Below are positions 1-51,442 of a DNA stretch of 64,000 bases, one piece after another. The stretch lies in assembly GCA_027306505.1 (NCBI GenBank), contig DAHUZP010000039.1, forward strand, positions 1-64,000, read 5' to 3'. This DNA comes from Thermoplasmata archaeon (lineage in GTDB: Archaea; Thermoplasmatota; Thermoplasmata; Lutacidiplasmatales; UBA184). Numbering within the stretch: position 1 is the first letter of the stretch; each line of letters begins with the position of its first letter. The translations under genes were made by a program, and so were the position numbers. The notes beneath the pieces were generated by a model, which ran no database searches, was not told where the DNA came from, and was given only the letters and a program-made list of their open reading frames with translations.

Positions 1-1363
1 GGCCCAGGGCTTCACCCTGACCGGCAGCATCATGGGCGCGACCTGGGTGTGCGGCAACACCTGGGTCGGCAACACCGCGGGTGGCTCGGCCATGCTGCCT
101 TACAACGCGGGCGGCAACATCCAGCTCGGTGGGGACTACTGCCCTGGCGACGCCTCTGGAATGCCAACCTACCAAGTGACCCTCGTCGAGTCCGGCCTCG
201 CAGCCGGTATCACCTGGGGAGCTACGGTCGGCACGCTCGCGGTCTCCGGTACCTCAACGGCGACCGCCAGCTTGGCCACGGTGGCAGGCCTCGAGGCGGG
301 CTACCTCGTGTGGACCGCGACCGACGTCGCGGGCTATGTGGCCGTCCCCGACAGTGGCAGCTACCTGGTGGGCTCCGGTGCGCCAATCGTGATCAACTAC
401 GTCCCGGCCCTGATCACGATCACGAGCCCTGTTGCGAACTCGGCCTACGCTGCGCCGCTCTACGGGTTCAACGTCACGTGGACGACCACCGGGCTGGGCA
501 GCTTCGGCCCTCAGCTCTCGATTGACATCGCGATCGCGGACTCCTCGGGCAACGTGGTGTCGGCGAAGGTCGCCTCGGTCGTCAGCTCAACCACGACCTA
601 CGATGAGAGCGCGCTCAGCTTTGCTCCGGGCTGCTATCAGGTCCTCGTCGGGATCTACAACGGCACCACGCCTGGAATTGGTGAGCCGTCCACCCCGATG
701 GCCTCGTGGCCTGATGTGGCCTCCCAGCCGTACTGCGTAGCGTATGCCTACTCTGCGCCCTCGGTAACGGGGGTCAGCGCTCAGGCGGCAGGGAACGTCA
801 CCATCTACTACCAGTGGGACTCCCCCCACGCGATGGCCGCCGAGTTCACGGTCTGGCAGGGCACCACGGCGGTCTTCGCGCCCACCAGCGTTTGGTCCTC
901 CGCAGGGGCGGCGTCCGGCACGGAAGTGATCGGACTGCTGCCGCAGGCGACGACCACCTACAGCGCGGTAGTCTCGGTCCAGACGGCGGGCGGCTCGTGG
1001 GTCAACTCCACGTCCACCTTCCAGGTGAACCCACCCGCGCCTCCGACCACGGTGTCGGCGCCGACCTGGTACAACACGACCAGCAACTACTACTACAACT
1101 CGACCCAGACCCTCCCTGGCGGTCTGGCGGCGAACACCCTCGGCACGATCCTGCTCGAGATTGGGATCGTGGTGGGCGCTGTCATCGGCATCATGATCGG
1201 CACCATGATGTCCCGCAAGGGCAAGGGCGGGATGAGCGGCGGAGCGAGTGGCACGGGAGCCTCGTCGGCGGCGGGTGGCATGTTCACCTGCGCAGCCTGC
1301 GATGCGAGCTTCCCCGACCAGAAGGCCCTGGACGACCACCGCAAGACCGTCCACGGGATGTAG
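1..1363 (+). CDS. Surface protein with C-terminal membrane helix and cytosolic C2H2 zinc finger (5' partial)
   Basis: The frame is open to the left edge, so the N-terminus lies outside the window. The visible part, about 450 residues, is rich in Thr, Ser, Gly, Val and aromatics and reads as repeated beta-sandwich (Ig/fibronectin-like) extracellular modules. Near the C-terminus a hydrophobic helix (around 1150-1210 nt, LLEIGIVVGAVIGIMIGTMM) is followed by a positively charged stop-transfer stretch, a Gly/Ser linker and a C2H2 finger: CAAC, 12 residues, then HRKTVH. The finger would lie in the cytosol. Established: such fingers bind zinc and often nucleic acid or protein. Inference: a surface protein anchored with an intracellular adaptor module. 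The ligand is unknown. A strong terminator follows the stop codon. Confidence 0.75.
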   Translation, partial: AQGFTLTGSIMGATWVCGNTWVGNTAGGSAMLPYNAGGNIQLGGDYCPGDASGMPTYQVTLVESGLAAGITWGATVGTLAVSGTSTATASLATVAGLEAGYLVWTATDVAGYVAVPDSGSYLVGSGAPIVINYVPALITITSPVANSAYAAPLYGFNVTWTTTGLGSFGPQLSIDIAIADSSGNVVSAKVASVVSSTTTYDESALSFAPGCYQVLVGIYNGTTPGIGEPSTPMASWPDVASQPYCVAYAYSAPSVTGVSAQAAGNVTIYYQWDSPHAMAAEFTVWQGTTAVFAPTSVWSSAGAASGTEVIGLLPQATTTYSAVVSVQTAGGSWVNSTSTFQVNPPAPPTTVSAPTWYNTTSNYYYNSTQTLPGGLAANTLGTILLEIGIVVGAVIGIMIGTMMSRKGKGGMSGGASGTGASSAAGGMFTCAACDASFPDQKALDDHRKTVHGM

Positions 1364-1391
1364 TCGGTCAGGGCTGAACCGACGCCCCGAT

Positions 1392-1447
1392 CCCCCGGCC
1401 GGAAAGGGCCGGGGGGTCGAACCCTTTCCTTTCTTTCCCTTCTTCTG
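1392..1447 (+). terminator. Hairpin plus pyrimidine tract
   Basis: A 9-bp perfect GC stem (1392-1400 with 1407-1415, loop about 6 nt) is followed by a long C/T tract (1421-1447). It lies directly behind the first gene and ahead of the convergent glyA-like gene. Confidence 0.6.
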
Positions 1448-1520
1448 GGTCTGTGCTCGCCGCTATAGGACCCATGGCTGAAGGTGGGCCTGAAGGCTCC
1501 GCGAGGGGAGCGCAGCGACC

Positions 1521-2771
1521 TCAGGTGAAGGTCATCGACCGGAACCGCCGACGAAGGAGACGGACCGAGCGGCGCACGTCCTTGCGGTCAAGGCCGGCCT
1601 GGCGCAGTAGCCCTGCGACCTTGGGCATGTCGCGTGGACGAAGACCGAGGCGGGTCGCCTCGGCGGTCCCGACCCGGCCGACGAGGTCGATGATGAGGTC
1701 CTGCTCCTCGAGCCGACGGGCGAGGCCCGCGGGACCGATGCCGTAGCGACGGCGCATCTCCGCGCCGTCCAGGTGGACCTGGTGGGAGGCCGTGTAGCCC
1801 TCCGACTTGCCTACGACCGGGAACCCCTCTTCGTCCATCGCCTTGGCCAGCGCACGGGAGTTGGCGACGACGGTGCTTGCGTATCGGGGGCCGATCCGCT
1901 CCATCTCCAGAAGGGCCTGGCCGAGCCCGGCGATGCGGTTCCAGTGCGCGTTGTCCAGGATCCGCCAGGTGAGCGCGGCGTCCATCTGCTGGAAGAGGTC
2001 CTCCCGGTCCGTGACCAGCAGTCCGCCCTGGGGGCCGAAGAGGGTCTTGTGGGTCGAACCGAAGGCCACGTCCGCGCCCTCCCGAAGGGGGTCCTGGAAC
2101 TCACCGCCCATGGTCAGCCCTAGGACGTGGGAGGCATCGTAGAGCACCAGGGCCCCCACCTCGTGGGCCACTTCGGCGATCTCCCGAAGGGGGTAGGGGA
2201 ACAGCACGAAGCTCTGCCCGAGGACGATCGCCTCGGGACGGTCACGGTGGAGCAGCGTCGCGATCTCGTCCAGGTCGGCCCGGTGGGTGAGACCGTGGAG
2301 AGGCAGGGGAAGCACGTTGTGGCCCAGGACCGCGGGTAGGAAGCCGGGGGCGTAGCCGTCGTAGCCCCCATCGTCCGGCTGGACCGCGAGATAGCGTGCG
2401 CCCCTGGGAAGCAAGGGAGCGAGGACGCACATCGAGGCCACGTGTCCTGAGAGGGGGCGGACGGAGGCGTACCGACCGTGGAGGAGGCGCGAAGCGGACC
2501 GGGCCGCGAGGGCTTCGATCTCGTCCGTGAAGCGCGTCCCCGCGTAGCCGTTGTCGACCTTCTCTCCGTGAAGGGTCTGGGCGAGGGGCAGGGTGTAGCG
2601 CCGGGACAGGTCGCTCGCGAGGTACCTCTGCACCGTCGGTGAGGAGAGGTTCTCGGAGGCGAGCAGGTTCAGGCAATCATGCGCCCGCCAGCGCTCATGC
2701 TTCGCGACGAGCTCGCGGAGCCTGGCCTCCTCGTCCTTCCCACCCTTGTGTGCTTGCCCTTGGCCAGCCAT
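1521..2771 (-). CDS. glyA: Serine hydroxymethyltransferase-like PLP enzyme
   Basis: A 416-aa fold-type I PLP enzyme of the GlyA/SHMT family, which in archaea exchanges serine and glycine using a pterin C1 carrier. Family landmarks are an LLASEN segment near residue 38, a YTLP/HGEKVDNGY region around 59-76, the PLP-ring Asp in LYDASHV (about D212) and the Schiff-base Lys in GSTHKTLFGPQGG (about K242). The length is close to archaeal SHMT (about 430). The start is supported by GAGGT 8-12 nt upstream of the ATG. It follows csl4 by 60 nt, probably in one transcript with the methylase gene. A threonine-aldolase-like activity is possible, since the sequence departs from bacterial GlyA in its C-terminal half. 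Confidence 0.8.
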   Translation of the reverse strand: MAGQGQAHKGGKDEEARLRELVAKHERWRAHDCLNLLASENLSSPTVQRYLASDLSRRYTLPLAQTLHGEKVDNGYAGTRFTDEIEALAARSASRLLHGRYASVRPLSGHVASMCVLAPLLPRGARYLAVQPDDGGYDGYAPGFLPAVLGHNVLPLPLHGLTHRADLDEIATLLHRDRPEAIVLGQSFVLFPYPLREIAEVAHEVGALVLYDASHVLGLTMGGEFQDPLREGADVAFGSTHKTLFGPQGGLLVTDREDLFQQMDAALTWRILDNAHWNRIAGLGQALLEMERIGPRYASTVVANSRALAKAMDEEGFPVVGKSEGYTASHQVHLDGAEMRRRYGIGPAGLARRLEEQDLIIDLVGRVGTAEATRLGLRPRDMPKVAGLLRQAGLDRKDVRRSVRLLRRRFRSMTFT

Positions 2772-2831
2772 GGATCTACCTCGAAGGCGGGCCCCGGTCG
2801 ATGGCCACGGGGTATCGGATCGACGGCCCCC

Positions 2832-3650
2832 TCAGCCCGAGGAGGGATCTGGGGGCGGGGCTGCGGGGGTGTTCTCGCCGGAGCTGGGGGCGTCCAGCGG
2901 GTCGTCCGGGCCGGGCTCGTGGGAGCTCCGGTCCCTTCGACCATGGCGTCCACGGTCCCCACCACGGCGGTCGTGGTCCCGGTCATGGTCCCGGTCGTGG
3001 TCCCGGTCGCGGTCGTGCCCTCGGTGGTGGCCTTCCTCGGCGTGGGACTCACCAGGAGCTCCTTCGTCCGAGGAGGGCCCGCCCTTGTGGCCGCCGTACT
3101 CCTTGGAGACCTTCCTCTGCTCGCGCCGACCGCAGCGGTTGCAGACCATCTGGCTGCCGCTGACATGGGAGAGGATGCCGTGACAGTCGGTGCAACGTCC
3201 GAGGACCACGCCGAACTCGCTCCCTTGCGTAGAGAGCTTGACGGTGGGGTAGCCCTGGAGCACCACGGCCTTCAAGATGTCCCCGATCGCGAACTCGAGA
3301 CCGAGCTCCTCGACATAGCTGTCCTTCGCCTTGGAGATGTGGACGGTGCCCTCGGGGTTCCCGGGGACGGTCCGCCCGGTCCGGGCGCTGGAGAGCACGT
3401 TGGTCACCAGCATCGCGCTCTTGATCTCCTCGATCCGAGCGTAGACCGTGTCGCCCTCGGAGAGGTGGGGGACCTCGTGGAGCGCCTGCACCGACACGGT
3501 GCGGTTCTGGGTGTCCACCTTGGGGTGGCCCAGGAGGGCCGCGTAGACCTGCCCGTTGTACTCGTATGTGCCTCGGCCCGGGACGAACTCTTCGGCGGTC
3601 CCCAGGAGGTCTCCTGGTAGGACCAGACGTTCTTCGGAGGGGTCGCTCAT
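2832..3650 (-). CDS. csl4: Exosome RNA-binding subunit Csl4 with charged repeat tail
   Basis: The 272-aa protein matches archaeal Csl4, which forms the RNA-binding cap of the exosome and recruits DnaG. The N-terminal domain is residues 8-60, the S1 barrel about 65-145, and the zinc ribbon has C153, C156, C170 and C173. Typical Csl4 ends near residue 185. Here about 85 more residues follow, including a near-perfect Asp/Arg/His run (HDRDRDHDRDHD, about 210-228) and further Arg/Asp-rich sequence. The gene sits 15 nt behind the METTL5-like methylase, in line with a shared RNA-processing operon. The tail is probably disordered and could bind RNA or partner proteins (inference). Confidence 0.9.
   Translation of the reverse strand: MSDPSEERLVLPGDLLGTAEEFVPGRGTYEYNGQVYAALLGHPKVDTQNRTVSVQALHEVPHLSEGDTVYARIEEIKSAMLVTNVLSSARTGRTVPGNPEGTVHISKAKDSYVEELGLEFAIGDILKAVVLQGYPTVKLSTQGSEFGVVLGRCTDCHGILSHVSGSQMVCNRCGRREQRKVSKEYGGHKGGPSSDEGAPGESHAEEGHHRGHDRDRDHDRDHDRDHDRRGGDRGRHGRRDRSSHEPGPDDPLDAPSSGENTPAAPPPDPSSG
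2969..3017 (-). repeat. 12-bp coding microsatellite in the csl4 tail
   Basis: A tandem repeat of about 12 bp (plus-strand unit gtggtcccggtc with variants), roughly four copies, encodes the Asp-Arg-Asp-His repeats of the Csl4 tail. Such repeats change length easily. Confidence 0.7.
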
Positions 3651-40733: not shown

Positions 40734-42179
40734 TCACCTCGAGGGGACCGCCGCCGTAGAAGGGTTCACGGCAGAGCCCCCCTCTCCTGCTCCCGAGGAG
40801 CCGAGGGTCGTCCCTGCGGCCTCGCTCGTGCGGCCCCCTAGGGCCGACACGGCAGACGCGGTCGCTTCCGTTACCACAGCGCTGGAGAGCTCGGGTTCCC
40901 GTAGGAGCGACAGAAGACCCTTCGGCCGCAAGGCGAGCAGGATGGAGAAGCACCCCAGGAGCGCGTAGAACAGGGCCCAGGTCAAGCCCAGCATCGGCGC
41001 GGAGAGGGCAGGGAGCCGAGCGCCGCCCATGGAGGCCGGGACGCCCTCCGCCCCCAGGACCTCGTTCCCGAGTCCCGCGAGCCCCCAACCAGTGAGAGGT
41101 GGAGGTACCCCTACCGCCAGCGACAGCCCGCAGACCAGGAGCAGCACTCGGTAGATCGGGACCAGGCCCTTGAGGCCGGGCCGCGCGGCGAGGGTCACCA
41201 GGACCGCAGGGAAGAGGGCGGCCGCGACGGCCGTCAGGCCCACGAAGGGCCGCTGAAGGATCCCGCCGACGACCAGCGCCGTCTCCGCCCCAGGTGCGGC
41301 GGGCAGAGCCCACTCGATCAGGACCGAGAGGGACCAGAGCGTTCCGGCGATGAGGAGGAGTGCCCGGAACGCGCCGACGACCCAGCGGGGCCAGCGCTGG
41401 CGCCTCTCGGCGGTCCCCGCGTGGGAGCGGTCGCGGTCGCGAGAAGAGGCGAGAGCGCCTGTGGGGCGACCGTTCGCAGAGGGGTCTGGCGCGTCGCGGG
41501 GCGTCCGGGACCGACGCCGTTCGGGGGTGCTCTGAGGTGAGAGGTCACCAAAGATGGCGAGGAGGTGCTCCTGGGCCAGCAGAGCGACCCCGAGGATCGC
41601 GATCTGGAAGACGTTCAGGAACCAGCTGTTGGCGAGCACCGCATCGTAGGTGGTGCCGCTCGCCTGGGCGACGGCCCCGATCCCCGCTGCGGCTGCGGCG
41701 CTCGTCGAGCAGCAGGCCCCCAGCGTGAGCAGCGCGATCATGGCCGGGGTCATGCCGGCCGTGAGGCTCACCGCTCCGGTACCCGGGCCTGCTCCGGAGC
41801 GCTCCGCCCTACGGTCGGAGAGCAGGCGGGAGGCGAGCACGACACCGGCGCCCATGCCAATCCCCACGCCGGTCGCCACGACGATCATCGAGAGGGTCGC
41901 GAGATAGGGAAGGACCAGGATGCCTCCCGGCCACTCCACGAGCAGCGCCGGGTAGTCCCACGAGGCCTGCGCGTAGGGGTTCGAAAGGACCTGGACGGTG
42001 AGCCCGCTCACCTTCTCGGGCAAGAACTCCAGCATGAGCCCCGCGTAGAGGGAGATGAGCGCGTAGGCGACCCCGATCCCCACGGCGAGGGCCTTCGCGC
42101 CCCGGCTCCGCAGCAAATCCCGGGTGTGGAGAAGGGCCAGCAGGTCGCGGAGACCCGATTCCCGACCGCCGGAGCTCAT
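40734..42179 (-). CDS. LGACCST-motif membrane protein A (long form)
   Basis: 481 aa of no family I can name. Six helices in the N-terminal half (about 30-50, 85-115, 140-165, 180-200) include the segment GMTPAMIALLTLGACCSTSAAAAAG with a conserved Cys-Cys-Ser-Thr. A charged Arg/Ser/Asp linker (about 210-260) is followed by four to five more helices and a Ser/Ala-rich tail. The N-terminal half is clearly paralogous to the 242-aa protein beyond the IS element. Paired Cys in a helix could bind copper or a cluster (inference). ATG is 30 nt after TATGTA. It is coupled to the polyferredoxin gene. Confidence 0.82.
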   Translation of the reverse strand: MSSGGRESGLRDLLALLHTRDLLRSRGAKALAVGIGVAYALISLYAGLMLEFLPEKVSGLTVQVLSNPYAQASWDYPALLVEWPGGILVLPYLATLSMIVVATGVGIGMGAGVVLASRLLSDRRAERSGAGPGTGAVSLTAGMTPAMIALLTLGACCSTSAAAAAGIGAVAQASGTTYDAVLANSWFLNVFQIAILGVALLAQEHLLAIFGDLSPQSTPERRRSRTPRDAPDPSANGRPTGALASSRDRDRSHAGTAERRQRWPRWVVGAFRALLLIAGTLWSLSVLIEWALPAAPGAETALVVGGILQRPFVGLTAVAAALFPAVLVTLAARPGLKGLVPIYRVLLLVCGLSLAVGVPPPLTGWGLAGLGNEVLGAEGVPASMGGARLPALSAPMLGLTWALFYALLGCFSILLALRPKGLLSLLREPELSSAVVTEATASAVSALGGRTSEAAGTTLGSSGAGEGGSAVNPSTAAVPSR

Positions 42180-42254: not shown

Positions 42255-43583
42255 GGTACTGTACGAGGGTCTGTTGATTTCCGATAGGGACAGTCAAGCA
42301 GGGACTACCGCCCTCATGTACCTTCCCAGCGAGGTCTGGTAGACCCACGGGCGAGTCTTCCGGACCAGGAGGAGGAGGACTAGGTTCCTCAAGCCGCTCC
42401 CCCAATGCGCCCAGATCCGTTTACAGCGGTGGGCCACCATCCCCATGATCCTCTCGATGCCGTTCGAGGTGGACGGCATCCAGATGCCCCACACCGCGAG
42501 CTCCGCGAAGACCACCACGGAGCGTCCCTCGTTGCGGAGGAGCTGGGCGGCCCGAAGATGTCCCGCCTCCTGTAGCTGCCCCGCCAAGAGCCCCATCTCC
42601 GCCAGGGTCTCCTTCACCCGTCGGGCGATCGCCTCCCGGTCCCCGTCCTCGGTGTGCTTCTTCACTGAGGCCCGCAGGTGCCCGAGCGTACCCCTCAACC
42701 GCCTCGTCCATCGCTCACGCTCCGTCGGAGGGAGGAGCGTTCCCGACGGGCCGACCAGAGCACTGTCCACCTGCCGCACGAAGTGGAGGATGCATCCCTG
42801 GTACGCCCAGCAGGCGATCGTCAGGAGCGAGGGGTCCCGGTCCGAGACCAGAAGCTCCACTCTCTCCCCATCCAGGACCTTCGCGGCCGCTCCGTCCACC
42901 TCGACATTGACGAACTCGCAGCGGTGCGTCTCGGGGTCCTGCCGGATGGCCACGTGGACCGCGTGCTGCCCTCCCCTCTTCTGGCTCCGCACGAACGTGC
43001 TATCGGGCTGGTGGACCCCTCCGGAGGACCGAGGAGGCATGGCCTGGTGGATCTCCTCCACGCGAGAGGCGAGCTCTTGGACGATCCCCCAGATGGTGGG
43101 GAACGGGACCCTCACCCCGAGGGCCATCTCGAGAGAGCGCTGCGCTTCCCGGTAGGTAGTCCGGGTGGCCTCCTCCGCCGCGGCCACCCGGAGCTCGGGT
43201 GTGTAGCGTCGCTTGCCCAGGTGGATGGCCCGAATCAGAGGGGAGAAGGTCTCCCCCGTGACCTTGTCTAGAATCCGCTGGACCCGGAAGGTCAGCTCCC
43301 CCAGACGACTGACCAGGGTGCGGAGGTACCCACCAATCCGTACGAACCGATGCGTGCCGTCCTCCAGAAGGAGCTTCCGAAGCTCGTAGACGAGGTCATC
43401 CTCCGCCTCCCGGAGGATGTCGCCGAAGGCGCGGGCTCCCCTCGACTGGGCCCGTCGGGCGAGTTCGCTAAGGTCTATCCGCTGTCCGGTATTCGCTATC
43501 GTGGGTCTCCTCTCCTGTGGGTCTCTCAGTCCCCATCAGGAGAGGGGGTCCTCCCCAAAATCAACAGACGACCATACAGCACT
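42255..43583 (-). mobile_element. 1329-bp insertion sequence, IS256/ISH6-like
   Basis: Imperfect terminal inverted repeats of about 26 bp (42255-42280 and 43558-43583) share a perfect 12-bp inner block GTCTGTTGATTT and an outer GT-CTGTA block. They are flanked by an 8-bp direct repeat. A single DDE transposase is read leftward. Eight-bp duplications and repeats of this length are usual for IS256- and ISH6-type elements. The element sits between two divergent paralogous membrane genes. Confidence 0.9.
42294..43187 (-). CDS. DDE transposase of the IS element
   Basis: 297 aa from GTG 43187. The presumed catalytic triad is Asp in HQPDSTF, Asp in LVSDRDPSLLT and Glu in SNGIERIMG, with CILHFVRQVD between, resembling the IS256/ISH6/MULE group. 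The same frame stays open upstream to 43535 (116 more codons that read as protein, for example AEDDLVYELRKLLLEDGTH and GKRRYTPELRVA) but without ATG, GTG or TTG. An ATG at 43536 with a GGGGAGG upstream starts a frame offset by one base and stops after 22 codons. The intact protein may therefore be about 413 aa and either frameshifted by mutation or made by +1 frameshifting. Confidence 0.85.
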   Translation of the reverse strand: MAAAEEATRTTYREAQRSLEMALGVRVPFPTIWGIVQELASRVEEIHQAMPPRSSGGVHQPDSTFVRSQKRGGQHAVHVAIRQDPETHRCEFVNVEVDGAAAKVLDGERVELLVSDRDPSLLTIACWAYQGCILHFVRQVDSALVGPSGTLLPPTERERWTRRLRGTLGHLRASVKKHTEDGDREAIARRVKETLAEMGLLAGQLQEAGHLRAAQLLRNEGRSVVVFAELAVWGIWMPSTSNGIERIMGMVAHRCKRIWAHWGSGLRNLVLLLLVRKTRPWVYQTSLGRYMRAVVPA

Positions 43584-43631: not shown

Positions 43632-43639
43632 CCTTATGC
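43632..43639 (+). promoter_or_regulatory. TATA box of LGACCST gene B
   Basis: ccttatgc, with TTATG at 43634, lies 32 nt before GTG 43666 and 40 nt beyond the IS duplication. The ATG at 43636 falls inside it and is not the start. Confidence 0.55.
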
Positions 43640-43665
43640 GCTGCCCCCGCCCTGGCTCTTGCACC

Positions 43666-44394
43666 GTGACGACGACGGCGCCGGAGCGCGGTCCCCCCGA
43701 CACCCCCGGTCTCCCGGCTCGTCTACGGCACGTCGCAGGGCTCCTTTCGCTCTCCACCACCCGCGCTCTCCTCCGGGACCGGAGGCGACACACCTTGGTC
43801 GCGCTCATCGGAGGGATCTACCTGATGCTGGCGCTGGTCATCGGAGAGATGCTGGTCTTCCTCCAGACCGGTCCTGGGTACCTGCTCATCACCGATTCCT
43901 GGGCCCTCGCTCCGGCCCACTGGGCCTACCCGGCCGTGGAGGTGGTCGCCCCAGGGGTCGTCCTGGTGCTGCCGATCCTGGGCACGATCACGATGCTCGT
44001 CGTTTCCACGGGCGTGGGGCTCGGGATGGGCGCGGCCATCGTCCTCGCCCGCGGATGGGCCCGGGAGCGGCGTTCCAGGGTGATGAGCTCGAGCGGGGCA
44101 TCTTCGATGTTGGCGGGCCTCACCCCGATCATGCTAGGCCTTCTCACGCTGGGGGCCTGCTGTTCGACCGCCCTTGCGGGGGCGGCGGGCTTCGGTGCCC
44201 TGACCCGGGCGGGCACGGCCGCCGGGAACCCGCTCTTCACCAACCTCTGGGCGCTAGCGGCCTTCCAGATGGTCATCGTCTGGGTGGCCCTGGTGGCGCA
44301 GGAGCAACTCTTCCGACTCTACCTCACGGTGGTCCGCGACGCTCCTCCTGCGGAACCCAACGCTCCATCCCCCAGCACCGCTCCATCGGACTGA
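43666..44394 (+). CDS. LGACCST-motif membrane protein B (short form)
   Basis: 242 aa. Helices at about 45-65, 85-120, 138-165 and 185-207. GLTPIMLGLLTLGACCSTALAGAAG aligns with the segment in the long paralogue, as does the preceding VVSTGVGLGMGAAIVLA. It lacks the second half of the long protein. GTG 43666 is chosen from promoter spacing. The gene is divergent from the long paralogue and, without the IS, the two starts would be about 150 bp apart. Confidence 0.8.
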   Translation: MTTTAPERGPPDTPGLPARLRHVAGLLSLSTTRALLRDRRRHTLVALIGGIYLMLALVIGEMLVFLQTGPGYLLITDSWALAPAHWAYPAVEVVAPGVVLVLPILGTITMLVVSTGVGLGMGAAIVLARGWARERRSRVMSSSGASSMLAGLTPIMLGLLTLGACCSTALAGAAGFGALTRAGTAAGNPLFTNLWALAAFQMVIVWVALVAQEQLFRLYLTVVRDAPPAEPNAPSPSTAPSD

Positions 44395-44428: not shown

Positions 44429-45001
44429 TCAACGGGACCCGCGGACGACGGCCGCCCCAGGGCAGATGGGCCGGAAGGCGCAGTGCGCGCACTTTCCCGG
44501 CGACGGGTCCATCTCTCCCCGGTACGGTCGTCTCCACGAGGCGATCGCGTCCAGCACCTCCGCCCGACCCGCGGCCCCCCAAGGGACACGGAACTCGGTG
44601 CCGTCCCCGTAGATCAACAGCCCGTAGGGAGGGACCGTGCCGAGGTTCTCCTCGATGAGCAGGCAGTAGGCGAGGAGCTGGACCCGGTGGGAGGGGTAAG
44701 GCGAGCCTTGCCGTGGGGTGCGGCCGGATTTGATCTCCACCGGGACCATCCGCCCATCCTCCAGCCGACGTAGCTCGTCCGGTCTCCCGCGAAGCCGATA
44801 CCGGGAGGAGGAGAGGAGCGGCATCCCTCCCTTCGAGGCGAGGTCCACCGCGACGACCGGGTTGTAGCGCAGCGGAGGGCGAAGGGCCCTGTAGAGGGCC
44901 CATGCGGCGACCAGCCCGACCACCAAGAGGGCGACCTCCACGAGGAACAGCGGGGACCCGATGGGGGGAAGGGCGAGGGGCGGGCCGGTCAATGCCACCA
45001 T
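44429..45001 (-). CDS. Cas4-like nuclease, C-terminal half with N-terminal membrane helix
   Basis: 190 aa. Membrane helix at about 17-38. Then come the PD-(D/E)XK active-site residues D75 (GRPDEL), E89 and K91 (VPVEIKSGR), the QxxxY motif Q108-Y112 and three Cys (C171, C174, C180 in CAHCAFRPIC), as in the iron-sulfur clusters of Cas4/AddB-type nucleases. The conserved His and the first cluster Cys are missing here. They are encoded in the overlapping upstream gene. ATG 45001 overlaps the end of that gene by 13 nt. The 3' end faces the LGACCST gene B at 34 nt. No CRISPR or other cas gene is in the window. Confidence 0.82.
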   Translation of the reverse strand: MVALTGPPLALPPIGSPLFLVEVALLVVGLVAAWALYRALRPPLRYNPVVAVDLASKGGMPLLSSSRYRLRGRPDELRRLEDGRMVPVEIKSGRTPRQGSPYPSHRVQLLAYCLLIEENLGTVPPYGLLIYGDGTEFRVPWGAAGRAEVLDAIASWRRPYRGEMDPSPGKCAHCAFRPICPGAAVVRGSR

Positions 45002-45276
45002 CCGAGCCAGAAGGTCAGGGCGGCCAGCACGCCGAGCGCGAGCAGCAACAAGACGGCATAGGGCGCGCGCCGGGCGTGATGAGCCGTGGCGTGCTCCGAT
45101 TCCATCCGGGCGTGGAACATCTCCCCGTAGAGGTTCGCCTCCGTGCGTGGAGGGGCGTTCCATCCCTCCGGGAGGTGCTCAGGGTGGCGCCTCCAGAACC
45201 ATGCCCTTCTACAGTAGGTGAAGTCGCCGAGCTCGCTGGGCGTCGCCCAATCCCGATCGCTCCCGGCCGGGTCCAC
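44989..45276 (-). CDS. Cas4-like nuclease, N-terminal half with C-terminal membrane helix
   Basis: 95 aa. It begins with the Cas4-type N-terminus TPSELGDFTYCRRAWFWRR, giving the first cluster Cys (C22), and the conserved active-site His in GEMFHARM (H55). One membrane helix at about 71-93 then ends the protein. Together with the downstream overlapping gene it completes one nuclease domain around a helix-loop-helix hairpin. Start GTG 45276 lies about 28 nt after a TATA element. It could be a genuine two-subunit enzyme or one gene broken by a frameshift or sequencing error inside the hairpin. Confidence 0.8.
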   Translation of the reverse strand: MDPAGSDRDWATPSELGDFTYCRRAWFWRRHPEHLPEGWNAPPRTEANLYGEMFHARMESEHATAHHARRAPYAVLLLLALGVLAALTFWLGWWH

Positions 45277-45547
45277 GGTGTGCTCCAGCCCCCCCGGAAT
45301 ATTTGGGGTAGGAGCTCCAGTAACCCCTCACGGTTCGGCCCCTCGATGGCTCACGCTACGAGGGGCCCGCCACGTCGACGCGGTCCAGGACCGGCTTCCC
45401 AAGCTCTTCGACACCCCCCTCTGGTCGGAGATCCCCCTCTGGGACGCCTACCAGGCGACCACGGACTACCTGACGCACGAGGTCAACGTCAACCCGGACC
45501 GGGAGCGAGCATTCGAGCGGGCGGCAGCCGGGGCCCTGCTCGCCTGA
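45218..45547 (+). CDS. Doubtful small hypothetical protein
   Basis: An open frame of up to 109 aa. Only its second half (from about 45360: HVDAVQDRLPKLFDTP onward, ending AFERAAAGALLA) looks protein-like, amphipathic and acidic. No start codon lies in frame after the TATA element, and the first half overlaps the split nuclease in antisense. It may be a remnant of a lost gene. Confidence 0.3.
   Translation: MKSPSSLGVAQSRSLPAGSTVCSSPPGIFGVGAPVTPHGSAPRWLTLRGARHVDAVQDRLPKLFDTPLWSEIPLWDAYQATTDYLTHEVNVNPDRERAFERAAAGALLA
45297..45305. promoter_or_regulatory. AT-rich TATA element upstream of the split nuclease
   Basis: ggaatattt on the plus strand (AAATATTCC on minus) lies 22-30 nt upstream of the GTG at 45276. 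It could also fire to the right. Confidence 0.55.
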
Positions 45548-47023: not shown

Positions 47024-47033
47024 CATTTTATGA
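47024..47033 (+). promoter_or_regulatory. TATA box of the Kelch/Ig-like surface protein gene
   Basis: cattttatga lies about 38 nt upstream of the ATG at 47066, implying a leader of about 8-10 nt. Confidence 0.6.
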
Positions 47034-47065
47034 GGCGCGGCTCATCCCGCCGCCCCGGAAGCCCC

Positions 47066-50000
47066 ATGTCCGAGACCTTCTCATCACCGATCGCTCGAAA
47101 GCGCCGAAAGCTCTCCTGGTGGACCCCCTTCGCTGCGATGGGGATCCTCGGTATCCTTCTCTTTTCCTCGGGCCTGCTCGTGTCCTCCGCCCACCAGGGC
47201 GCGTCCACGACGGCGGTGAAGGTCGGTAGCGGCATCGCGACCTCCTCTTCCTTCCAAGCCCCTGGCGGCGCGATCTCCAACCCATCGGTGAGCGCCCAGC
47301 AACTTCGTGCAGCGACGGCGTCGCTCGAGGACGGTCAGGGTCCTGCCGACGGGCACGCCGCCCGGTGCTCGTCGAGCGCGCCCTCCACCTCCGTCGCGTG
47401 CGACCTCCAGCCCTCGGTCACCTCCGCTCCCACCCCGGGCTGGCAGGAGCTCAACACGCCCGCGGGCCGCTACGGCGCGACCATGACCTACGATGGGGCG
47501 GACCACTACGTCCTGCTCTTCGGGACCGGGAGCTCCAACTACGCGGCCGCAGACACCTGGGCGTTCGCGGGCGGCTCGTGGAGCATCGTCCACACGGTCA
47601 CCGCCCCTCCGGCCCGCGTCTCCCCCATGATGGCCTACGACCCCGCCGATGGCTACGTGGTCCTCTTCGGCGGATGGGGCGGCAACTACGGGCCCTCCGA
47701 GTACGGCGACACCTGGACCTACGTGAAAGGGGTGTGGACCGAGCTCTACACCCCGACCGCACCCTCCCCCCGCGACTCCGGGGCCATGACGTGGGACGCG
47801 AAGGATGGCTACCTCGTCCTCTTCGGTGACTACGCCGGGGACAACGATACCTGGACCTTCGTCGCAGGATCGTGGACCCCCCAGATCGCCCCCAGCATGT
47901 GCACGGGACCCGGTGGGCCCACCCCCTGTCCCTCGGGACGGGAGGACGAAGGCCTCACCTACGACGCTCACGACGGGTACGTCCTGATGTTCGGCGGAGA
48001 GAGCTCGAGCGTGTACCTCAACGACACCTGGAGCTACGTGGGCGGAAAGTGGACCGAGCTCATCTCGCCGTCCACCTGCCGCCCGACTACGTGCCCCTCC
48101 GCTCGTTACGAGCTTTCCCTCACCTACGACAGCGCTGACGGGTACGTGGTGCTCTTCGGCGGTTACGACGGCAGCGTGGACCTCGGTGACACCTGGTCCT
48201 TCCAGGCCGGGACCTGGACCCAGCTGCTCGTCAGCGGCTGCACCCCGGCCACCTGTCCGTCGGTCCGCTCTGGCGCAGCGATGACCTACGACCCGGCTGA
48301 CGGCGACGTGGTGCTGTTCGGTGGGTACTCCCAGCATGTCGACACCTGGTCCTTCGTGGGCGGGACCTGGTCCCCGGTCACCCCGAACGCCCCCTCCGCC
48401 CGATGGTCGGCGAGCATGGCCTACGATCCCGCGGACCGGGAAGTGGTCCTCTTCGGAGGCGACGACGGCTCGCTGCTCCAGGACACCTGGGCGTTCCGTG
48501 GTGGAAGCTGGACGCCGGTCATCACCTCTGGGGAGTGCACCGCGACCGGCTGCCCCGCGGCCCGGTCGGGGAGCAACATGACCTATGACGCCGCGGATGG
48601 ATACCTGGTCCTCTTCGGAGGACAGGGCGCCGCCGGCAACCTCCGCGACACCTGGAAGTTCGTGGGAGGCAGCTGGACCGAGCTCATCGCGGGCTCCGCC
48701 TGTTCGCCGACCACCTGCCCCACCGCACGGTACGGCATGTCCCTCGCCTGGGACCAGGCCGATGGCTACGTAGTGCTCTTCGGCGGGATGAGCGGCGCGA
48801 CGCTCCAACAGGACACCTGGTCGTTCTCGGCCGGTGCCTGGACCGAGCTCATCGCCGGAGGGAGCTGCACCGCAACGACCTGCCCGTCCGCCCGTGCGGG
48901 CGCGGGCCTCACCTATGACGGCGCGGATGGTTACCTGCTGCTCTTCGGAGGCTTCGCCCCGGCCCCCGTGAACGACACGTGGAAGTTCAACGCGGGTGGC
49001 TGGAGCGAGCTCCGGGCGCCCACCTCGTGCACGGGTGCCTCGCCTTGCCCCTCTCCCCGGGGATCGGCCGCCCTCTCCTACGACGCCAACCTGGGGCGCG
49101 TGGTCCTCTTCGGAGGCATGGGCAGCGCGGGCCAGCTCTCCGACACCTGGGAGTTCGCGCTCGGACAGTGGTCCTCGGTGAGCTCGCGCTACCCTCCGAC
49201 CGCGCGGTCCGGGGCGGGGCTCGTCTACGATGGAGCCCAGGGACGTACCCTGCTCTTCGGAGGACAGGCCGCGATGCCGCTCGGCGACACCTGGAGCTTC
49301 CAGGTCCCCTTCTTTGCGAACGCCCCGACCGTCTCCCCGACCGGGTCCTACGACGCGGGACAATCCGTCGTGTTCCAGGCGACCGCGACCGGCGGGAGCC
49401 TCGCTGGGAGCCCCTCCTTCTACTGGCAGGGACTGCCCGCGGGCTGCTCGGTCGCGGGACCGTCCCCCTTGGTACCCTGCCAGCTCACCACCAACGGCAC
49501 CTACTTCATCACGGTGGTCGCGATCGACAGCGACGGAAGTCCGGCCTACACCTCGAACTTCCTCGTGATCACGGTCAACCCCGACCCGGTGGTGACGCTG
49601 AGGAGCAGCTCCGCTCGGCTCGACCTCGGGCAGACGACGAACCTGACCGCCTCCACCGCGTGGGGATCGGCGGTCGTGAGCTACGCCTGGAACGGACTAC
49701 CGCCCAGCTGCGTCCCGACAGGAGCGGCGACGGTCCTCTGCACGCCCGCCTCGACCGCCGACCTCGGGACCTGGACGGTCTCGGCCAGCGTGACGGATGC
49801 CAGCGGCACCATCTCCCCGCCCGCCTACGTCGGGCTCACCGTGCTCACGGACCCCACGGCCTCCGTCGCCTTTGAGAGCCGCACGTCCCTCGATATCGGA
49901 CAGTCGGTACTCCTCTCTGCGAACGCGAGCGGCGGAAGCGCCCCCTACGCCTACCAGTGGACCGGGCTGCCCGCGGGCTGCGCGAACGACACGGCCACCG

Positions 50001-51442
50001 TGGACTGCAGGCCCACCGGCGCCGCAGGGACCTTCACTCCCTCCGTCCAGGTCCGCGACGCGAACGGGATGGCCACCGCTGCCGCCAAGGGCGTCCCCTT
50101 CACGATCTACGCCGACCCCACGGTCTCGGCGCCCTCGATCACGATCTCGCCCTCGGGAGGCCCTGGGTCCCAGGTGACCGCAGGGACCTCGATCGTGATC
50201 TCGGTCACCTCGACCGCGGGAGCGGGAGGGGCGACGTACGCCTGGTACGGTCTGCCTCCCGGCTGCGCGCCGGCCTCCAACGTGTCGACCCAGGTGACGT
50301 GCGCTCCCACCGCCATCGGGAGCTTCCCGATCTCGGCCGCCATCAAGGACTCCAACGGGGTCAGCATCCAGGGCACCACGACCGTGCTCTCCGTCGTGGC
50401 CCCGGCCGTCCCGCCGGCCCCCGCGCCCATCACCGTCATCGTGGGCGCGAGCCCCATGACGACCGATGTCGGGGGCAACCTCACCTTCGTGGCCACCGCG
50501 ACGGGCGGTTCCGGGCCGCTCACCTACTCGTGGACGGGTCTCCCCAGCGGATGCAGCCCCGCGAACACCGCGACGCTCTCCTGCACGCCCGGCCAGCCGG
50601 GGTCCAGCAGCATCACCATCACCGTCTCCGATGCCGGCGGCGCCCAGGCGAGCTCCCAGGTGGGAGTGGTCGTCTACCCAGCGCTCAAGGTCACCTCCTT
50701 GGGCGTCTCCACGACCTCGCCGGTCCTGGGAGGCACCGTGACCTTCTCGGTCAACGTGGAAGGGGGGAGCGGGGCCTACATCTACAGCTGGTCCGGACTT
50801 CCCGCGGGATGTCCCGGAGGGAACACCCCGACCCTGACCTGCGTCCCCAGCCAGACCGGTTCCAGCGCGGTCCAGGTCGTGGTCACCGACTCCACCGGTG
50901 CCGCCGCCTCCTCCCCGCTGGTGGACCTCAGCGTCTCCGCCGCGCCCACTCCGGCCTTCGACCAGGGAGCGAACGGGCTCGACTGGGCCCTCTTCTTCCT
51001 CGTGGTGGTCGCGGTGCTGCTGAGCCTCCTCGCGCTGGTCCTCAGCCTGAGGAGGGGCAGGGAGCCGCGCGGTGGAGGGTCGCACCGCCCCCGGGCTGAG
51101 CCTGCCCCGACCCAGGAGCCCCCGGCTCCCCTGGCCGTACCGGGCGCCCCCGCTTCCTCGGCCGGCCCACCGCCCGGTGCGGCGGACCCCAAGCCTTCGC
51201 AGGAGCCCCCCGCCAAGACCCCCATGGGCTCGGGACCCATCCCCACCTCGGACCCCGGACCTTCCTCGGCTTCGGGAACGAACGGGGCAGCGAGCCCTCC
51301 GGCTCCCAAGTCGCTCGGCTCACCCACCTTCCCCTACGTGCCCGAACGGAGACGCTGGATCGAGGGAAAGGGCGACCGCCCGGCGCCTGAGGGGTCGGAG
51401 TACTCCGAGGACGAGCCCACGGACCCCACGCCGACCGACTGA
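47066..51442 (+). CDS. Giant surface protein: Kelch repeats, Ig-like repeats, C-terminal membrane anchor
   Basis: 1458 aa. Signal anchor at about 19-42. Twelve Kelch-type blades span about residues 125-755, each with a V-LFGG-type strand and DTW turn and many with a two-Cys insert (CTxTTCP-like). Six Ig/PKD-like repeats follow (about 760-1300). Each carries W-x-GLP-x-GC and a second Cys 8-15 residues later, so a disulfide per domain is likely. A membrane helix (about 1303-1327) and a cytosolic tail of about 130 Pro/Ala/Ser residues close the protein. No zinc finger is seen in this tail. Probably a cell-surface adhesin or glycan-binding protein (inference). It is monocistronic with a hairpin terminator. 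Confidence 0.85.
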   Translation: MSETFSSPIARKRRKLSWWTPFAAMGILGILLFSSGLLVSSAHQGASTTAVKVGSGIATSSSFQAPGGAISNPSVSAQQLRAATASLEDGQGPADGHAARCSSSAPSTSVACDLQPSVTSAPTPGWQELNTPAGRYGATMTYDGADHYVLLFGTGSSNYAAADTWAFAGGSWSIVHTVTAPPARVSPMMAYDPADGYVVLFGGWGGNYGPSEYGDTWTYVKGVWTELYTPTAPSPRDSGAMTWDAKDGYLVLFGDYAGDNDTWTFVAGSWTPQIAPSMCTGPGGPTPCPSGREDEGLTYDAHDGYVLMFGGESSSVYLNDTWSYVGGKWTELISPSTCRPTTCPSARYELSLTYDSADGYVVLFGGYDGSVDLGDTWSFQAGTWTQLLVSGCTPATCPSVRSGAAMTYDPADGDVVLFGGYSQHVDTWSFVGGTWSPVTPNAPSARWSASMAYDPADREVVLFGGDDGSLLQDTWAFRGGSWTPVITSGECTATGCPAARSGSNMTYDAADGYLVLFGGQGAAGNLRDTWKFVGGSWTELIAGSACSPTTCPTARYGMSLAWDQADGYVVLFGGMSGATLQQDTWSFSAGAWTELIAGGSCTATTCPSARAGAGLTYDGADGYLLLFGGFAPAPVNDTWKFNAGGWSELRAPTSCTGASPCPSPRGSAALSYDANLGRVVLFGGMGSAGQLSDTWEFALGQWSSVSSRYPPTARSGAGLVYDGAQGRTLLFGGQAAMPLGDTWSFQVPFFANAPTVSPTGSYDAGQSVVFQATATGGSLAGSPSFYWQGLPAGCSVAGPSPLVPCQLTTNGTYFITVVAIDSDGSPAYTSNFLVITVNPDPVVTLRSSSARLDLGQTTNLTASTAWGSAVVSYAWNGLPPSCVPTGAATVLCTPASTADLGTWTVSASVTDASGTISPPAYVGLTVLTDPTASVAFESRTSLDIGQSVLLSANASGGSAPYAYQWTGLPAGCANDTATVDCRPTGAAGTFTPSVQVRDANGMATAAAKGVPFTIYADPTVSAPSITISPSGGPGSQVTAGTSIVISVTSTAGAGGATYAWYGLPPGCAPASNVSTQVTCAPTAIGSFPISAAIKDSNGVSIQGTTTVLSVVAPAVPPAPAPITVIVGASPMTTDVGGNLTFVATATGGSGPLTYSWTGLPSGCSPANTATLSCTPGQPGSSSITITVSDAGGAQASSQVGVVVYPALKVTSLGVSTTSPVLGGTVTFSVNVEGGSGAYIYSWSGLPAGCPGGNTPTLTCVPSQTGSSAVQVVVTDSTGAAASSPLVDLSVSAAPTPAFDQGANGLDWALFFLVVVAVLLSLLALVLSLRRGREPRGGGSHRPRAEPAPTQEPPAPLAVPGAPASSAGPPPGAADPKPSQEPPAKTPMGSGPIPTSDPGPSSASGTNGAASPPAPKSLGSPTFPYVPERRRWIEGKGDRPAPEGSEYSEDEPTDPTPTD

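Follow-up and report, generated by a model that had tools for sequence, protein, structure and literature searches.

Cas4 nucleases are known for their part in CRISPR spacer capture, and for the solo-Cas4 proteins we know of no role that has been agreed upon so far. The archaeal DNA analysed in the current study (the window, the whole stretch of 64,000 nt) carries two overlapping genes that together resemble a Cas4 nuclease, and it thus raises the question of whether such an enzyme can be divided over two small membrane proteins or whether the locus merely records a broken gene. A sequence-only reading of the same DNA had described two overlapping minus-strand ORFs of 95 and 190 aa, and their coordinates, lengths, strand and 13-nt overlap were all confirmed, as was the numbering of every residue to which it assigned a function (C22 and H55 in gene 1; D75, E89, K91, Q108xxxY112, C171, C174 and C180 in gene 2). 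Its description of gene 1 as ending, and of gene 2 as starting, in a membrane helix was borne out by hydropathy. The features of the locus are as follows:

45276..44989, minus strand: gene 1, GTG start, 95 aa; Cas4-like N-terminal part followed by a C-terminal transmembrane helix
45001..44429, minus strand: gene 2, ATG start, 190 aa; N-terminal transmembrane helix followed by a PD-(D/E)XK core and Cys171/174/180
44989..45001, minus strand: overlap of gene 1 and gene 2, 13 nt; gene 2 in the -1 frame
45001..45057, minus strand: predicted transmembrane helix of gene 1 (approximately residues 74-92), ending 3 residues before the C-terminus; from hydropathy
44894..44950, minus strand: predicted transmembrane helix of gene 2 (approximately residues 18-36) with a positively charged segment behind it; from hydropathy and charge
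45211..45213, minus strand: codon for Cys22 of gene 1, predicted Fe-S ligand; invariant in the f1, bacterial and fused forms
45112..45114, minus strand: codon for His55 of gene 1, predicted active-site His; conservation 96-100%
44729..44779, minus strand: D75, E89 and K91 of gene 2, PD-(D/E)XK metal-binding and catalytic residues; 97-100% in three groups
44666..44680, minus strand: Q108xxxY112 motif of gene 2; conservation 100%
44462..44491, minus strand: Cys171, Cys174 and Cys180 of gene 2, predicted Fe-S ligands; 100% in the f1 and fused forms, 93% in bacteria
45298..45304, minus strand: TATA-like AAATATT, approximately 25 nt upstream of the gene 1 GTG, recognised from sequence

The AAATATT element is consistent with a leaderless archaeal transcript that would cover both genes, which remains an inference. 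Profile comparisons assign the two proteins to different parts of the same nuclease models. Pfam PDDEXK_1 (PF12705) is tiled by the pair, with model positions 3-59 covered by gene 1 (E 9e-4, score 19.7, slightly under the gathering cut-off) and positions 113-247 by gene 2 (E 1.6e-11, score 45, above the gathering cut-off of 22). Gene 2 also scores 24.1 against Cas_Cas4 (PF01930; cut-off 22.7) and 61.1 against the NCBIfam cas4 model TIGR00372 (cut-off 65), on which the gene 2 of one Chloroflexota pair reaches 72.5. The latter model is matched by 13 of 18 gene 1 proteins of the window's archaeal family, and in the Chloroflexota pair it is tiled from 2 to 48 by gene 1 and from 53 to 179 by gene 2, so that the gene boundary and the membrane helices come to lie between positions 48 and 53 of Cas4. 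As judged from these matches, the resemblance of the pair to Cas4 is far beyond chance.

Residue conservation was compared in three groups, namely the split genes of the window's archaeal family (termed f1), the bacterial split genes and the fused, single-gene forms. C22 is invariant in all three, R24 is present at 100% in both split groups, and D75, K91, Q108 and Y112 are present at 100% across the groups, while the values for H55 and E89 are 96% and 100%, respectively, in 33 family members and 96-100% and 97-100% across the groups; the His is absent from one duplicate copy (L070). The C-terminal Cys trio of gene 2 is conserved at 100% in archaea (f1 and fused forms) and at 93% in bacteria. 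The catalytic H, D, E and K of Cas4, together with its QxxxY motif, are all present but distributed over two chains, and all four conserved Cys of the Cas4 family are present as well, C22 in gene 1 and C171, C174 and C180 in gene 2. Concerning topology, gene 2 has a mean charge of +3.9 after its helix and is approximately neutral before it, and in nearly all members gene 1 extends only 0-5 residues beyond its helix. By the well-established positive-inside rule, this pattern would locate the catalytic parts of both proteins at the inner membrane face, so that the topology signals fit the location which had been proposed for them.

Within family f1, both genes are present, and in the same relative frame, in 33/33 loci that are readable through the junction. 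A single uninterrupted gene in close relatives had been named beforehand as the observation that would overturn the proposal; when this was looked for, every one of the readable family loci was found to be split, and single-gene homologues were encountered only in other families. Gene 1 is under purifying selection (dN/dS <0.45 in 9/9 pairs compared) and was found by profile (E<=4e-10) in 76 of the 101 family genomes sampled. Since it was not detected at this threshold in about a quarter of the sampled genomes, the pair is to be regarded as common but not universal in the family, and it should be added that many of the genomes are incomplete.

The search of genomes for the two-gene arrangement, which the sequence-only reading had put forward as a check, revealed the pair in the archaeal family, in Chloroflexota, in Patescibacteria and on two Planctomycete plasmids. 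A scan of genome contigs yielded only 4 loci, the first bacterial cases among these. Gene 2 or a relative is present in 75 of 251 sampled genomes of Chloroflexota (the phylum of L033), and a recognisable gene 1 is adjacent at 25 of 32 bacterial loci, two of them in Patescibacteria; the relative frame of the bacterial pairs varies (0, 1, 2). A genome-wide search for gene 1, covering the seven bacterial loci at which no gene 1 is adjacent and two further Chloroflexota genomes, recovered it in 9/9 cases, across a gap of approximately 0.7 kb in three and at a separate locus in six Chloroflexota genomes. In one of these (G611) the two genes lie approximately 2.8 Mb apart on a single 3.3-Mb contig, and in the other five unlinked cases the halves are situated on different contigs of draft genomes. 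Gene 1 was present in all 19 gene-2 genomes tested (E<=6e-16), while no convincing gene 1 was found in any of 20 Chloroflexota genomes without gene 2, where three weak matches (E 4e-4 to 1e-2) were obtained. The co-occurrence is associated with a Fisher p of 1.5e-11, or of 2.6e-8 if the weak matches are counted; these values overstate the significance because kinship between the genomes was not corrected for, and the retention of unlinked halves is the stronger point. Halves that reside at different loci and always co-occur support the view that the two would be separate partner proteins.

The plasmids, Paludisphaera PALBO2 and Singulisphaera pSINAC03, are finished RefSeq sequences from isolates, and the pair overlaps by 4 nt on them (gene 1 was translated for Paludisphaera only). 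RefSeq labels gene 1 as a hypothetical protein and gene 2 as a PD-(D/E)XK nuclease, and half of the enzyme has therefore been overlooked. Genes for a MobF relaxase and a DNA methylase lie near the pair on both plasmids (L162/L163, L164), neighbours that hint at an involvement in transferring or protecting DNA.

In other families of the archaeal class the two halves are found in a single protein of approximately 330 aa (L076-L125, for example L089), composed of the N-terminal half, four predicted transmembrane helices and the C-terminal half, and full-query matches in one open frame were obtained in most of the class families sampled. The profiles match opposite ends of these fused proteins, that of gene 1 the N-terminal end (4-47) and that of gene 2 the C-terminal end (193-331). 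Structure prediction of a fused form gave a pLDDT of 86.7 and a pTM of 0.73, and its nearest solved structures are those of Cas4. Two fused proteins of approximately 540 aa (L079 and L091) have eight predicted transmembrane helices, as though the hairpin had been repeatedly duplicated between the nuclease halves. In the best tree, the f1 and bacterial (Chloroflexota) split forms group together against the fused forms with a support of 98/100, a topology hinting at one split followed by transfer between domains, although the alternative tree uniting the archaeal forms was not rejected (AU p 0.33).

Based on these findings, we propose that the two genes encode separately translated subunits of a single membrane-anchored Cas4-like PD-(D/E)XK nuclease, with an active site and an Fe-S cluster that would be rebuilt at the inner face of the membrane, and we assign this reading a probability of roughly 0.78, bearing in mind that the complex, the cluster, the activity and the role are all inferred. 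The gene 1 product would cross the membrane once with its N-terminus inside and contribute the active-site His along with the first Cys of the cluster, while the gene 2 product would start outside, cross inward and contribute three Cys in addition to the QxxxY motif and the catalytic D/E/K. Together the helices may then form a hairpin that unites the halves at the cytoplasmic face, and from the united halves both the active site and the four-Cys Fe-S cluster would be rebuilt. Translation of gene 2 probably proceeds by coupling or re-initiation at the gene 1 stop, which would yield matched amounts of the two subunits. A joined-chain model was built on a bacterial pair whose halves lie in one frame (L158, with the stop read as Gly); it reached a pLDDT of 72 and a pTM of 0.51, with the N-terminal 26 residues below 50 and the alignment partly misplaced, and this poor model was set aside, carrying no weight for or against assembly.

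The possibility that the split is a sequencing or assembly error, or that the locus is a decaying pseudogene of a single-gene nuclease, gains some support from the single-gene homologues of other class families and from an internal stop in a few family copies. It is refuted by the conserved split, which is identical in 33 genomes and recurs in finished plasmids of isolates, and it does not accord with purifying selection on gene 1 or with intact catalytic residues, so that its chances are negligible. Programmed -1 ribosomal frameshifting, by which one protein would be produced from both frames, has in its favour that gene 2 lies at -1 in all 33 family loci and that the overlap extends open for long upstream in these GC-rich genomes. 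However, a slippery heptamer of the form X XXY YYZ occurs in the overlap of none of the 33 f1 loci, and the junction, taken as the stretch from 31 nt ahead of the gene 1 stop to 8 nt beyond it, is strongly enriched in start codons, which are present in 32/33 loci where 11.7 would be expected from downstream codon use, with an ATG nearby in 18/33 (2.2 expected). These starts often overlap the stop as ATGA, GTGA or TGATG, the overlaps in f1 relatives being mostly 1, 4, 16, 19 or 25-28 nt and always 3n+1, and ATGA and TGATG overlaps likewise give the -1 frame. Frameshifting, moreover, cannot explain the varying frame of the bacterial pairs or halves at different loci, and we consider it very improbable. 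On this comparative evidence the split is real, and neither a frameshift nor an assembly error.

Accepting two genuine proteins still leaves room for a gene 1 product that acts only as a regulator or membrane tether of a gene 2 enzyme. The catalytic D, E and K and three of the four Cys do all reside in gene 2, and gene 1 is tiny; yet gene 1 shares homology with the N-terminal region of Cas4, of which it retains precisely the Cys, Arg and His, and in the fused homologues the two halves stay together on a single chain, making a purely accessory gene 1 unlikely. Somewhat further from our expectations is a membrane-bound Fe-S protein that uses the fold for DNA binding or sensing rather than for cutting: no function has been shown and membrane anchoring is unusual for this fold, but the catalytic residues are near-invariant and would not be required for binding alone. 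The two-subunit nuclease is accordingly the reading that we retain in what follows.

Genera g1 and g3 apart, the majority of f1 loci show the gene order (tyrS)-rpl7ae-rps28e-rpl24e-[gene 1-gene 2]-ndk-tsaC, a ribosomal-protein neighbourhood indicative of a long-resident chromosomal gene rather than of a defence or mobile island; the window's own genus has the pair in another place. The L7Ae/S28e/L24e genes of these relatives also mark the host as an archaeon. A conserved functional partner was sought in the ribosomal-protein neighbourhood of f1 and none was named by context, and among the neighbours of the fused forms no gene was common to more than 6 of 20 loci. The sequence-only reading had also stated that no CRISPR array or other cas gene is present. 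This holds for the window, in which neither a repeat array (throughout its 64,000 nt) nor a cas ORF near the pair was seen, but not for the genome, where cas1 is encoded on another contig (G000:C5:188289-189167) and the organism is therefore not free of CRISPR genes. An association of the pair with CRISPR was rejected, given the absence of an array from the window and the sparseness of cas1 in the family (only 18/101 genomes, against 76 with gene 1). A divergent copy in a genome of the same genus (L037, G002, contig C54, approximately 933-3365), whose gene 1 match contains an internal stop, neighbours a 577-aa ORF matching both Cas4 and Cas1, the sole CRISPR-linked neighbour seen. The window's genome also encodes a second Cas4-like protein that is unsplit and devoid of membrane helices (L075, G000:C61:134896-135270), similar proteins being found in relatives. 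Elsewhere in the window, two membrane proteins with a common TLGACCST motif and no Pfam match (40734-42179, minus strand; 43636-44394, plus strand) flank a transposase-like ORF (42294-43187), and 47030-51442 encodes a predicted surface protein of 1470 aa in which kelch-like and GLPxGC-type units are repeated and which has a membrane anchor at its C-terminus.

As to function, the most likely task of the enzyme, by inference, would be the trimming or degradation of DNA ends at the inner membrane face. The chromosomal setting in f1 speaks for a housekeeping function, either the repair of DNA or its clearance at the membrane, and we infer that the pair may serve there in repair or in the clearing of incoming DNA independently of CRISPR, although any one specific role stands well short of an even chance. 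A role in DNA transfer remains possible in view of the two plasmids.

The closest known systems differ from the pair in its defining features. Solo-Cas4 proteins (COG1468 / PF01930 / TIGR00372; PMC5704561) share with it the PD-(D/E)XK core, QxxxY, the four Cys, a location outside CRISPR loci and frequent occurrence in archaea, whereas the window pair consists of two genes, and in it two inserted membrane helices separate the His from the catalytic core. The survey (Hudaiberdiev et al. 2017, PMC5704561) attributes four Cys to all Cas4 proteins, and its main text mentions neither membrane helices nor a split. The single polypeptide characteristic of the Cas4 family is lacking in the pair, all 33 family loci having two genes. 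By sequence and by fold, the fused relative is matched best by the CRISPR Cas4 structures 8d3l, 7mi4/7mi5, 4ic1 and 4r5q; in each of these the solved protein is one polypeptide, which in 8d3l and 7mi4 functions together with Cas1-Cas2. The product of the window locus, in contrast, is anchored in the membrane and divided over two genes that have no link to cas genes. Further points of comparison are ACE1, an Argonaute-associated Cas4 family protein in which we know of no membrane helix, and the nuclease domains of Dna2 and AdnAB-type enzymes, which contain Fe-S clusters. ACE1 (9iab, 9iac) likewise represents the Cas4 family outside CRISPR and is a weak fold match, but is a single chain in the deposited structures, while the Dna2 and AdnAB-type domains (5eax, 6ppu), which share a RecB-like nuclease fold as judged by fold match, belong to large helicase-nucleases rather than to small membrane subunits. 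The fused class protein with four or eight helices has both halves and identical residues, and differs from the pair in being a single chain with two or four helix hairpins in the insert. In the literature accessible to us (open-licence papers only) no description of a membrane, split or two-gene Cas4 was found, and no published description of the fused 4-TM/8-TM protein was found either; the two-gene membrane Cas4-like enzyme is thus apparently undescribed.

Taken together, and from sequence comparison rather than biochemistry, it is likely that these proteins constitute an undescribed and widespread membrane branch of Cas4, made as a single chain of four or eight helices in the majority of the class families sampled and as an obligate two-subunit form in one archaeal family, Chloroflexota, Patescibacteria and Planctomycete plasmids, in which nuclease and Fe-S cluster would be assembled only upon helix pairing and the halves can be unlinked yet kept. 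The occurrence of this branch in the majority of the families sampled from an archaeal class, as well as in several bacterial phyla, suggests that, for the role of solo-Cas4, one should look to DNA handling at the membrane. The split renders the proposal testable, as neither the active site nor the predicted cluster should exist unless the two short membrane proteins come together, and the co-occurrence of the halves in genomes where they are unlinked provides natural evidence of their partnership.
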